A DNA stretch of 64,000 nt. Source: Salminus brasiliensis. Taxonomy: Eukaryota; Chordata; Actinopteri; Characiformes; Bryconidae. The stretch spans positions 33,596,932 through 33,660,931 of the forward strand of contig NC_132892.1 of assembly GCF_030463535.1 (NCBI RefSeq). The letters are read 5' to 3'. The translations under genes were made by a program, and so were the position numbers. Numbering within the stretch: the first letter of the stretch is position 1; each line of letters begins with the position of its first letter. Positions 1 through 64,000 of this stretch are shown piece after piece. The notes beneath the pieces were generated by a model that worked only from the letters and a program-made list of their open reading frames with translations, was not told the DNA's origin and did no database searches.

Positions 1-984
1 TGTGCAGTAGTCTACAAGGCAGGAGTGTTGTAATAGCAGAGATACTTGAAATAGATAAACATTGGTGACATTAATTGTAATTTTTTGTAATCGAATTATA
101 CAAGTTACTTGAATAATAGTTACAGCCCTAATCAGTAGCTTATTCAAGCAGGTACTAAAGACCGAAGAGCTTCTCGGTGAACAAGATAAATAACATCAGA
201 TAATTGTAAAGGGTATTAAGAGAGTGAGTGTGTTTGTGGGAAAGCATCATGTTATTTTATTACAAAATTTAGGGCCTCAGGAAGGCTAGATTTGGTACTG
301 TGGATCAAGCAACCTAGCAATGCTGCTGATAGGTGTAAAACACAGTACTACACACTCTACCATGAATACTACCACATTGCTGTTAGTGCCACCTAACTAG
401 TGCCTACACAACACCGGTCATGTGATTAGAAACCGATCAGTGATGAATGCAATAAAGGAAGGCTTATAAAATATGTAGCATCTGGTTGGTTACAGGTTGT
501 AGTTGTGCACCTACATGGTAGGTAGATTTAATAAAGTGAGTGAACCAATGAGGTATAGGTTTCTAATTAGGTTGCCAGTGAGTGTCATGTGGTGTTACTA
601 CCTTTTTGCATTAAGTCACACAAATTCACAGAGGACAGAAATTATGTTCTTTCAGCAACATGGTAAACACCAGATTCCTACACGAGACTACATAAAGTGC
701 AGTGTGTAAACATCAGTGCAAACATGGCAAAGAATTATTTGACTAAACAGAACATAGGCCACCACTGCTCCTGCTGTCATGGCTTGGTGACCATTTAGGC
801 CATGTTGCTATGCACTGTGGTTTGGGGAGTGTGAAGTGTTTCCCTTTTCAGTCTGCAGAGTGCCTCTTTAATAATCTCACTAGAGGACTGGTGCCACTGA
901 ATCATTGTAATAGAATTACAAGTTGTATCAGAAGCCTCTTTCTGTCAGTTTGGATAACAAGCTCAATCTTTAAAGCTTCTTTAG
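1..984 (+). other. Presumed intron / upstream part of receptor A, no coding exon seen
   Basis: No Ig, stalk or signal exon is recognisable here. Around 725-905 lies a block ending in the TM-exon upstream region that recurs at about 14000-14060, 20090-20170, 31740-31820, 52180-52330 and 60130-60300. In those copies it sits upstream of a short-tail TM exon, so it is duplicated intronic DNA. Short open frames in it do not match the receptor family. Any ectodomain of gene A would lie before position 1. Confidence 0.5.
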
Positions 985-1696
985 ACTCTCTCATTTACAT
1001 CACTGGAGGATTGGTTATCATGGTGGTCACTTTTCTGGTTGCTGTGATGGCACTTTACAAGCATAAGAAGAAAAACAAAAAGTCAAAAGGTACCAAATCC
1101 ACACAAACACACACACACAGTAAGTAGCATATTTTATGTACGATTACAATACAACATATCTGGATGTTTTGCAGCCCCAGCTGAGATGTCCCCTCCAATG
1201 CCAGCCTCTCCAATAGCAGCCAACCCTAGAGAGGTAGAGGTCTTACGATTAGTGTTAATTCATCTCCCTCCAGTGGACAGTACTGAGGACTAAATGTTGT
1301 AATGGATCTTTTCTTTGGCAGAACATTTCTAAATCCACTGAAATCCCATCAGCAGAAAGTAGATGTGATTTAGAAATGGATACAGTACAGATAGCAGAGC
1401 TTTACACAAATGTCTAAATCACTGAATAACCAGTATTTAAAGCCTTGCCTTATTCTTTATCACATGTCCTTCAGTTATGTGATACTCTCTGTAAAAGACT
1501 ACACATATTTACACCAATTCAAATTCTTCTTCAGGATGATGGCATCTACCAGGACACTGAAAAACAACAGCAGAAGCCTGCTATGGAGTCCACAGTCAAC
1601 ACAATATACTCTACAGCAGAAGAACCCGCTGATGCGCCAGTGTACTCCACCGTTAAAAAGCCAACTGATATTTATAGTACTGCCATTCTAGTTTAG
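985..1696 (+). CDS. Locus A: 3' end of a short-tail CMRF35/CD300-like receptor (partial)
   Basis: Three exons in consistent phase form the membrane and cytoplasmic end of a type I receptor: TM exon 985-1089, a short juxtamembrane exon 1175-1233, and tail exon 1535-1696 ending in TAG. The TM exon encodes a hydrophobic stretch starting SLIYITGGLVIMVV, followed by a Lys-rich stop-transfer segment. The tail carries Tyr motifs IYQDT, IYSTA, VYSTV and IYSTA. VYSTV has the YxxV spacing of an inhibitory motif but lacks the usual -2 aliphatic residue. The donor GAG|GTAGAG and acceptor TTCAG|GAT are good. An AATAAA at 1964-1969 may be the poly(A) signal. Compared with E and G, an 11-nt insertion in the Lys-rich segment keeps A in frame with its tail. 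The ectodomain is outside the window or missing, so intactness cannot be judged. Confidence 0.7.
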
Positions 1697-3116
1697 CCAA
1701 TTCCAAACAAATCACCATGGATGCACTGATTATCCATCAGTAGAGCTAAAGGCACCAACCAGCCTTAACCAGTGGTTAATCCGGGTAGGAGCCTAAGCAG
1801 AATCACCATCAGAGCAAGTCAGATAATTGTGGTTCTACTCTTGGAAAAAAGGGGGTAGTACAACTAGAGCTATTTGATTGTGTAAATGCATGCTATTCTA
1901 ATTTTCTTACACCTAAATTAACGTGTTTATTATGGAAGACATAGCAGATCATTCAAAAAGGAAAATAAATTCCATTGGGTTGTGTTATTTTTCTCATCTT
2001 GATGATCAAGACTCATCAGTTCAGGGAAATATTAATAATAATTATTATATAATAGCTTTAAAAACAAAGAAATTAACAATGTAATCAAAGGTATGTGTAA
2101 AGGTTCACTTTTCCTCAAGTGCATCCATTTGTAAAATAAATAAATAAACACATTTTTGAATCAGCATTTACATGATGTATGTTTTGCTATATATAAGGTG
2201 TTTGGTAATTGAATCAACTACAATAACTGAGTGTGAGTCTGAGTGAGATCTCATGGGTTATAGGACTGCTGTTTAGAGTTTATGTAAAGGTGTCTAAAAA
2301 CATGGGCCCATTTTCATATGATGTCCGTCAGTGGTCCGTTGGTTAGATCAGGTAGGCACTGTTTGCCACTGCTGGTCCCTTCTTGGACCATCCAGATAAA
2401 TGTCATGTACAAGATCTAACTAGTTTTTGATCTTCTCAAAAAAAAAAAAAAAAACATTCTAAAAGAGACTTTTATTTTAGAAAATAAACTAAAACTAATA
2501 TTACAAACAGCTGAAAATAAAATAATAATAATTTCTTATTTTTATTTAACGTATTAAACTAATTATTGAAGGATATTAAAAGTAAGAAATTAAAGGAAAT
2601 AAGTAAAATGTTGGTGTAAAATGAGTAATAATATTGTAGGGGTTGTCGAATATTGATGAATAATACAACCACACAGAAAATAAAAAATTAAAGTGGACCG
2701 CCAGTTTTGCCATAAGTGAGCCAAAAGTGGTTCGCTATCCTCTTGATATCAGGGACATTTTCTCAACTTTTGTTTATGTGTGTAAGTAGATGGAACAGTT
2801 CAACGTTCCTATGTCAAAATTAGGGCTACATTAAAAAGACTGGATCTTTATGGGGACTGAAAACGTTTCCTGTATGTGCTGCATCTACGTGGCAGTAGAG
2901 ATGAACTTCTAAAAGAGGGAAGTCAAGCATAGAACAGTACAGTACAGTATACAGTAATAGTATAAACGTCTGGAGCAGTCTGTAGTAAAACAGTACTGAT
3001 AAACAGTGATGGCTCAAAGGGTGAGAAACAGAGTGAAGACTTCATGATCATTTGATTATATAGTATTTTAAAGGTTACAGTAACTGACTTGCTGTAACAT
3101 GCCATGGCAAGAAGAA

Positions 3117-3169
<53 letters not shown>

Positions 3170-62649: not shown

Positions 62650-63358
62650 AATAGGACTGAGATCAGAGCTTTGTAATGGCCACTCCAAAACATTTTCTTT
62701 GTTATCCTTACGCCACTTTGTAACCTGTTTGGCAGTTTGCTTTGGGTCATTGTCCATTTGGAAGACCCATTTGAGCCCAATCTTTTACTTCCTGGCTGAT
62801 GTCTTGAGATGTTGCTTCAGGATTTTCACATAATGTTCTTTCCTCATGATGCCATCTATTTTGTGAAGTGCACCAGTCCCTCCTGCAGCAAAACAACCCC
62901 TCAACATGATGCTGCCACCCATGTTTCACAGTTGGGATGGTGTTCTCAGGCTTCCAAGTTCCCCTCTTTTTCCTCCAAACATAACAATGGTCATTATGGC
63001 CAAACAGTTAAATTTTAGTTTTGTCAGACCACAGGACATCTCTCCAAAAATTTATCTGGCTTTTTTTTGTTATTTCTTTTGGAGTAATGGCTTCTTCCTG
63101 GCAGAGTGGCCTTTCAGCCCATGTGGATACAGTCCTCGTTTCAATGTGGATAATGACCCACTCTTACCAGCTTCAGCCAGCATCTTCACAAGGTCTTTTG
63201 CTTTTGTTCTTGGACTGATAGGCTTATTTCAGACCAGAGCACATTCATCTCTGGGACACAGAACCTGTCTCCTTCCTGAGTGGTATGAAGGCTGGGCATT
63301 CCCATCTTGTTTGTACTTCTGTATAATTGTTTGTACAGATGAACGAGGCACCTTCAGT
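62650..63358 (-). mobile_element. Tc1-like transposase remnant (second, different subfamily)
   Basis: Minus-strand translation in shifting frames gives KHGWQHHVEGLFCC (usual form KHGGGSIM...), TGALHKIDGIM-like and [12 protein letters not shown] Tc1 core pieces, with several stops. It runs from the middle to the N-terminal part of the transposase; no terminal repeats were identified. Its upstream end abuts DNA homologous to the stalk-exon flank of J (from about 63359), so it marks the junction in front of M. Confidence 0.75.
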
Positions 63359-63483
63359 CAGTGAGGAATTTATCACCCTTCATCCAGATCTAATACATAA
63401 ACTATCATATACAAATATTTTATGATTCATAAACATAAATAACATTTTTTTATTTTAATCCAAATCATTGTTTATCATTAAAG

Positions 63484-64000
63484 AGAAATCACAGCAACCA
63501 GTAACTTTATCCAATTCATCAATGTCAAACAAAACTTCACAGAAAACAAAAGCTATCACATCTTCAACATCTAAAACCATCACCAATGCATCACTTAGAA
63601 CAGAAACACCTACAGGTAAAACACACACTGCACAACTCCTGATACTCGGTAATTCAAGATCCAGGTATTCAGCTATGGCCATTTTATGCAGTTTACTACC
63701 AATAAAACCAACCACACCTCTATCCCTCCACCCATACAAGCTAAATTAATCACTTTAATTGAATTTCTCAATTTGAACCCATTAATTAAGCTTGTCCTCA
63801 TTTATTTGCTTTACAAACTATTTGCAAACTAAAGATGGGAATGTTCAGATCTAAAAGAAAATATACATGAAGCACATGCTTTTGTTAACAATACATACCA
63901 GGAAAAACTGTAATCTGTAATCTGTAAATTATACATTCATTACAGGACAAGATCAACCAGTAAGGTCATCAACCTCACCACCAAGAACCTCAAGTCCACT
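63484..64000 (+). CDS. Locus M: stalk exons of a long-tail receptor, continues beyond the window (partial)
   Basis: Stalk exon 1 is 63484-63615 (132 nt, phase 1-1, donor ACAG|GTAAAA), nearly identical to 47503-47634 of J. Stalk exon 2 starts at 63946 (acceptor TACAG|GACAAG) and runs past the window end. Both are Ser/Thr-rich and open, encoding the extended membrane-proximal stalk. No signal, D1 or D2 exon lies between L and this point. Either M has lost its ectodomain, or these exons are alternative 3' exons for the D1-D2 of L, whose exons have compatible phase. The 3' sequence would decide. Confidence 0.6.

Follow-up and report, generated by a model that had tools for sequence, protein, structure and literature searches.

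A tandem array of two-V-domain, NILT-kind receptor genes in Salminus brasiliensis with a probable in-place inversion of one block

The 64,000-nucleotide stretch of the Salminus brasiliensis genome analyzed here (the window; C15:33596932-33660931, on a contig of 36.87 Mb in a searched assembly of 1.066 Gb in 103 contigs) carries a series of receptor genes with two V-type immunoglobulin (Ig) domains, D1 and D2, resembling the teleost NILT family. Profile and tblastn scans located 20 D1 sites on C15 from 3.4 to ~163.8 kb (at least 54% identity to the probe; one is a remnant), and the copies are numbered by these D1 sites (u1, u2, etc.), positions past 64000 being given in window numbering on the same contig. 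Across these ~160 kb, the minus strand holds 4 of the 20 D1 sites, all contiguous and all inside the window. The window covers one portion of a longer tandem array, head-to-tail apart from these four sites, that continues rightward, in agreement with the tandem duplication proposed in an earlier reading of the letters of the window (hereafter the sequence-only reading). That reading had also counted about 13 units, which did not hold: the window contains 8 D1 and 7 D2 sites, and the candidate number of thirteen receptor genes was rejected on the 8 D1 sites. Adding the detached 3' ends (960-1693, the transmembrane exons at ~19.6 and ~52.8 kb, and the tail exon at 35.2 to 35.6 kb) brings the tally of modules to 12, which may be where the earlier count came from, a guess because its units A to M were given without coordinates.

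Two types of 3' end recur in the array, one made of a stalk exon, a transmembrane exon (TM1), and a long cytoplasmic tail (CYT1), the other of a second transmembrane exon (TM2) and a short tail (CYT2), and some TM2 and CYT1 exons have no V exons immediately upstream. On the plus strand, open reading frames and tblastn place a TM2 exon (960-1091) and a CYT2 exon (1523-1693) of a preceding copy ahead of u1 (3334-9391), which comprises a leader (3334-3379), D1 (3470-3789), D2 (4236-4589), stalk, TM1, and CYT exons and is broken, its D1 frame being interrupted and the first Ig cysteine of its D2 replaced by Tyr. The minus-strand copies follow. First comes u2, reduced to a broken D1 (10489-10810), with no D2 found in the profile and tblastn scans. 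Next is u3 (12412-17073), with its leader start at 17073, D1 at 16614-16937, an open D2 at 15825-16178, a divergent and probably broken TM2 at 12938-13045, and CYT2 at 12412-12585. A TM2 exon lacking V exons immediately upstream (19552-19644) and Tc1-like transposase fragments (21187-21794; Pfam HTH_Tnp_Tc3_2 on 21187-21537) lie between u3 and u4 (22917-28991), and u5 (31198-33582) ends the series with a broken D1 (33299-33582), D2 (32824-33153), and TM2 (31198-31290). Back on the plus strand, u6 (39286-42400) has its leader start at 39286, D1 at 39419-39742, an open D2 at 40178-40531, and CYT2 at 42269-42400, no TM2 being found by the profile and tblastn scans. It is followed by u7 (44322-50219), another TM2 exon that has no V exons immediately upstream (52820-52912), and u8, which runs from 56219 past the window end (leader 56219-56264, D1 56358-56681, D2 57129-57470, TM2 60780-60875), its stalk, TM1, and CYT exons reaching up to 66263. 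Altogether, D1 is open in five of the eight copies (u3, u4, u6, u7, and u8) and broken in the other three (u1, u2, and u5); the same five have open D1-D2 pairs, and two copies, u4 and u7, have full-length predicted frames.

Based on predicted splice sites, u4 would encode 467 amino acids from a leader (28946-28991), D1 (28537-28860), D2 (27748-28089), stalk (24891-24995), TM1 (24673-24786), and two cytoplasmic exons, CYTa (23699-23745) and CYTb (22917-23342), on the minus strand. On the plus strand, u7 would encode 439 amino acids from the corresponding exons (leader 44322-44367, D1 44453-44776, D2 45224-45565, stalk 48364-48468, TM1 48566-48679, CYTa 49550-49596, CYTb 49878-50219). Both predicted chains are open throughout, with phase-1 introns until the short cytoplasmic exon and a phase-0 intron before the tail, and with exon sizes of 46 (leader), 324 (D1), 342 (D2), 105 (stalk), 114 (TM1), 47 (CYTa), and 426 (u4) or 342 (u7) bases for the tail; this openness is partly a product of choice, because the TM1 acceptor was picked to restore the frame. 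Two further copies, u8 and u10 (the window excludes the 3' part of u8 and the whole of u10), are predicted to read from their V exons into the far tail if TM2 is skipped, and in u11, the splice-site pattern used found no D1 donor. Reverse-transcriptase-like fragments occupy equivalent sites between D2 and stalk in u4 (26198-26730) and u7 (46601-47015; the Pfam RVT_1 check covered 46601-46882), and because it sits at the same place in both copies, the insertion probably predates their separation.

The domains fit the earlier description as CD300/pIgR-like, since both D1 and D2 of u3 are V-set in Pfam and the joined u3 D1-D2, compared with PDB sequences, retrieved pIgR first (2.1e-39) and then CMRF35/CD300; the two-Ig type of teleost NILT is nevertheless the closer description, a likeness judged from domain architecture, cysteine spacing, and exon sizes and phases. 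The cysteine spacing is CX6C in D1 (FCKSSWTNC) and CX7C in D2. AlphaFold, given alignments of 12 rows, modeled both D1 and D2 poorly (mean predicted local distance difference test scores of 49.4 and 58.3, respectively). In the tails, relaxed YxxI/V/L motifs number five in u4 and six in u7. Counting some copies outside the window, the strict immunoreceptor tyrosine-based inhibitory motif (ITIM; S/I/V/LxYxxI/V/L) is present in four of six CYT2 stretches and in none of the eight CYT1 stretches (seven copies, one in two pieces), while TxYxxV/I, which we take to be a signaling "switch" motif, is found in seven of the eight CYT1 stretches. We infer that these genes encode receptors of the cell surface, with D1 loops that would contact variable ligands and tail tyrosines that would recruit SH2-domain phosphatases or adaptors and thereby tune leukocyte activation.

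At E ≤ 1e-10, self-blastn of the window returned 177 repeat pairs up to 5.6 kb long, of which 105 are inverted and 72 direct, confirming the extended repeats on both strands noticed from the sequence and ruling out a similarity limited to exons. The longest self-match is inverted (23682-29168 versus 49613-44145; 5,607 columns, 91.0%) and is followed by another inverted one (14371-17844 versus 41976-38550; 91.2%). Within the window, inverted repeats outweigh direct ones (52955 versus 30354 bits; 96 pairs of at least 200 bp at E ≤ 1e-20). Tandem Repeats Finder at score 100 gave a single (TA)n stretch, from which we conclude that the repeats are long, spaced units. The palindrome across positions 1 to 64000 seen in the sequence-only reading was not confirmed in that form; the strand layout is plus/minus/plus with two switch points, both sharp, on the left between 10441 and 10444 and on the right between 37013 and 37023, and they bound a minus-strand block at 10442-37018. 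A dispersed repeat (36740-36955) that recurs at several sites to the left of the array lies beside the right switch.

The ends of this block are themselves duplicated. The earlier observation that 7500-10400 recurs inverted at 34130-36960 was borne out, with 7494-10441 (plus strand) matching 37013-34098 (minus strand) over ~2.9 kb at 93.4% identity (2,671 ungapped columns, 522 gap columns). The left copy spans the intron after TM1, CYT1, and the 3' flank of u1; the right copy holds a detached CYT1 (35203-35590), and the scans found no TM1 in it, as expected if the copied segment starts inside the intron. Over TM1-CYT1, u1 and the detached copy are 95% alike, whereas each is 77 to 80% alike to u4, u7, u8, u10, and u11 and 63 to 66% to u14. 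Immediately beyond the right switch, at the point where the array returns to the plus strand, 37023-37876 is homologous to what comes after TM2 in other copies; it is closest to two minus-strand copies of the block (18.1-19.0 and 29.8-30.7 kb; 92% and 89%) versus 85, 82, 81, 81, 80, and 79% for six plus-strand copies. Inverted duplicates thus flank an inverted block, as left at the ends of the Drosophila inversions 2h and 2q, which are described in PMC3355041 as products of staggered breaks. Altogether, we consider it probable that one block of ~27 kb (~10,442-37,018) of a tandem NILT-kind array was inverted in place, with its ends duplicated over ~2.9 kb, and we infer a single inversion event by staggered breakage and end joining. 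Replication that switches template can leave inverted duplicates at sharp junctions, together with loss of sequence nearby. One such complex event could have made both the block and its duplicated ends, and it would fit the sharp joins, the inverted duplicates, and the loss at u2; it predicts the same structure by another mechanism and is here indistinguishable from staggered breakage, so that its likelihood, which we judge rather low, overlaps that of the inversion and is not to be added to it.

Such arrays are hard to assemble, and a hairpin or haplotype join could in principle have made the inverted arms, the more so as part of the wider cluster (C15:33.857-33.873 Mb) appears to exist in a second version on a small contig, C70 (five of six scores equal). 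However, such errors give near-identical arms, whereas the seven inverted pairs of at least 1 kb that link the minus block with the plus-strand part to its right are 73.7 to 93.5% identical and the end duplicates differ by 6.6% with many gaps, and the window contains zero N within its long contig. Because the arms are too different, a simple assembly artefact is very improbable.

More serious is the proposal that u6-u7-u8 was copied in reverse to give u5-u4-u3 as a true palindrome. This inverted duplication, part of the sequence-only reading, accounts directly for the mirrored order and nearly exact mirrored spacing of the copies and for the inverted matches between u4 and u7 (5.6 kb, 91.0%) and between u3 and u8 (2.4 kb, 89.3%). 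If it were recent, mirror partners should be the closest relatives, and they are not. In the V block, u3-u8 (93%) is the lowest value of u3 against eight core plus-strand copies, u4-u7 reaches 95% versus 96% for u4-u9, and u5-u6 81% versus 82% for u5-u7. The same holds for TM2, with u3-u8 at 81% versus 94% between u3 and the copy at 69.0 kb (and 80% between the TM2 exons at 19.6 and 52.8 kb), for TM1-CYT1, with u4-u7 at 96% versus 97% for u4-u8, and for u2, with u2-u9 at 82.2% versus 93.7% for u2-u7. Moreover, apart from the margin of one D1 pair, self-blastn found no repeat pair across the center (33.7-37.0 versus 37.0-39.3 kb); the right end of the minus block pairs instead with the far left flank. 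Later exchange of segments could have blurred the closest-relative evidence and masked an older inverted copy. The mirrored spacing speaks for inverted duplication, but one inverted block whose ends were duplicated is the better fit, and we regard inverted duplication as unlikely, if less so than the artefact or the template switch.

Several points qualify the in-place inversion or weigh against it nonetheless. In 1-128000, repeat bits amount to 337744 direct and 138622 inverted (362 pairs of at least 200 bp at E ≤ 1e-20), and re-inverting ~10.0-10.5 to 36.5-37.0 kb (on a 500-base grid, where four intervals tie) lowers the inverted share from 0.291 to 0.0000, leaving 476366 bits direct and 0 inverted. 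This supports an inverted block in a head-to-tail array, but we rejected it as proof, since inversion and inverted duplication give the same result and any plus/minus/plus array yields zero. The D1 start positions add up to 73.0 kb for u5/u6 and to 73.3 kb for both u4/u7 and u3/u8, and under an inversion, a spacing mirrored almost exactly demands a prior tandem duplication of a three-copy block. Furthermore, several of the gaps between mirror partners and best matches are 1% only, the D2-to-TM2 part of u2 must have been lost in addition, and the unusual nearness of u2 to u7 (93.7%) is left without explanation.

We propose the following order of events for an inversion. A block would first have been duplicated in tandem, making u5-u4-u3 and u6-u7-u8 sister blocks, which they probably are given their nearly exact mirrored spacing. 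The four-copy block u5, u4, u3, and u2 would then have been flipped in place, with a staggered left break in the 3' part of u1 that left 7494-10441 also in inverted form at 37013-34098, and u2 would have lost its D2-to-TM2 part at the other break. If neutral change proceeds at a few 1e-9 per site and year, the 6.6% difference between the duplicated ends would correspond to roughly ten million years, an age that exchange between the two ends would make look too young. No inversion inside a NILT or CD300-like array was reported in the literature that we surveyed by title and opening of the abstract, which included few subscription journals, and a paper on medaka NITR genes (PMC2442602) does not mention inversion, gene conversion, tandem, or haplotype.

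Exchange of segments between copies, the gene conversion anticipated from the sequence, is strongly supported by 10 core copies (u3, u4, u6, u7, and u8 of the window and u9 to u13 rightward; the tests omit the broken u1, u2, and u5 and divergent copies further right). In the V block (1,436 columns, 108 informative sites), compatibility between neighboring informative sites far exceeds that of shuffled sites: a custom statistic of the pairwise homoplasy index (PHI) type gave 0.298 versus 0.553 for shuffled sites (standard deviation, 0.016), with 0 of 5,000 shuffles as low, and a runs test concurred (0/2,000). The same PHI-type test gave 0/5,000 both for D1 by itself and for the flank together with the intron, 7/5,000 for TM1-CYT1 in seven copies, and a marginal 177/5,000 for D2 alone. 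In the D1 loops (placed by eye), silent and replacement differences are raised together (0.172 and 0.156 versus 0.029 and 0.034 in the framework; intron difference, 0.023), levels matched by random 33-codon sets in 12 and 0 of 10,000 draws, respectively, and this joint rise argues for segment exchange over point-by-point selection as a source of diversity. No such rise was seen in the D2 loops (replacement [pN] 0.027 and silent [pS] 0.048 versus 0.045 and 0.028 in the framework). Pooled Nei-Gojobori (NG86) ratios, computed on paralog pairs that are not independent, were 1.10 (D1) and 1.18 (D2); positive selection inferred from dN/dS was rejected, as pN did not exceed pS in fractions of 0.375 (D1), 0.310 (D2), and 0.570 (D1 loops) of 2,000 codon bootstraps.

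After the last D1 cysteine, a dimorphic stretch reads WNKDLY or MWPDDH; in the V-block tree, the latter turns up on two distinct branches (u6-u7 and u8-u13), and broken copies carry similar forms (MWLDDH in u2, WNKEGLY in u5), a distribution that fits the passing of segments and is not proof of selection. In u8 and u13, D2 (57122-57475 and 121491-121844) encodes an identical protein and the V blocks are 99% alike, suggestive of recent copying or conversion. A tentative extension, which we hold less probable than not, is that the array acts as a germline diversity generator, with D1 loop cassettes passed by gene conversion across both strands and the V pair of u8 or u10 joined by splicing to one or the other of two 3' ends that differ in their tails. 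Fish innate-receptor clusters consist of many near-copies, which short sequence resolves poorly; an inversion with sharp boundaries, whose copies on both strands seem to exchange segments, would allow tests of the effects of orientation on gene conversion and copy loss.

Beyond the array, whole-genome tblastn gave totals of at least 141 and at least 136 matches (150 of 226 and 150 of 214 candidates scored). Among the matches listed, further relatives lie on C11 (35.5-35.9 Mb), and weaker V domains lie on C15, mostly at 32.99-34.43 Mb, and on other contigs, e.g., C6 and C27. Also among the matches listed, V domains at C15:33.899-34.228 Mb are all on the minus strand, with plus-strand matches at 34.38-34.43 Mb and mostly plus-strand ones leftward, so that a larger orientation block may exist there, and those of C70 lie in inverse orientation with scores equal to C15:33.857-33.873 Mb in five of six matched pairs, C70 being possibly a second haplotype or a duplicate of that part. 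Left of the array are other Ig exons, one 89-amino-acid stretch of which matches CEA, FCRL5, CD22, and many other Ig proteins in PDB.

With pIgR and CD300/CMRF35, its best PDB sequence matches, the family shares a V-set fold with a second cysteine pair. While pIgR moves immunoglobulins across epithelia, nothing here suggests such transport. CD300, for its part, is described in PMC3031540 as having a single V domain, unlike the two V exons per gene found here. Closer are the carp SITR and SITR-related zebrafish genes (chromosomes 1, 2, 15, and 19), presented in PMC3031540 as multigene sets with two CD300-like Ig domains; unlike the soluble SITR proper, the copies here have TM1, TM2, and tail exons, as in the zebrafish chromosome 1 and 15b sets. 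Likenesses of kind, orthology aside, extend to the fathead minnow, where PMC9420404 places CMRF35-like genes beside a B-cell-receptor-subunit array (here, Ig exons lie to the left), and to the CD300e-like (CLM2) cluster of herring, a variable cluster of CMRF35-like genes that differs in structure between long-read haplotypes according to PMC11088111; by analogy, copy-number variation in the present array is plausible. The nearest match is NILT as characterized in the sections of PMC3022915 used here. Shared features are two V domains defined by CX6C in Ig1 and CX7C in Ig2, a 46-base leader exon, a connecting-peptide exon, a TM exon, a short cytoplasmic exon followed by a phase-0 tail exon with several YxxV/I/L motifs (the relaxed form, which this source accepts; the long tails here lack the strict ITIM), and clustered genes in both orientations with pseudogenes. 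Exon sizes are, as judged by eye, near those of Atlantic salmon Ssa-NILT3 (46, 330, 321, 99, 105, 50, and 327), and the table of the same source contains other two-Ig NILTs (Omy-NILT1L, 3, and 4L and Dre-NILT2). Unlike NILT, the array here is larger, more homogeneous, and equipped with a second type of 3' end (TM2/CYT2). This locus would therefore combine a known gene family with a known kind of rearrangement, most likely an inversion, and with an interesting exchange of segments between its copies.

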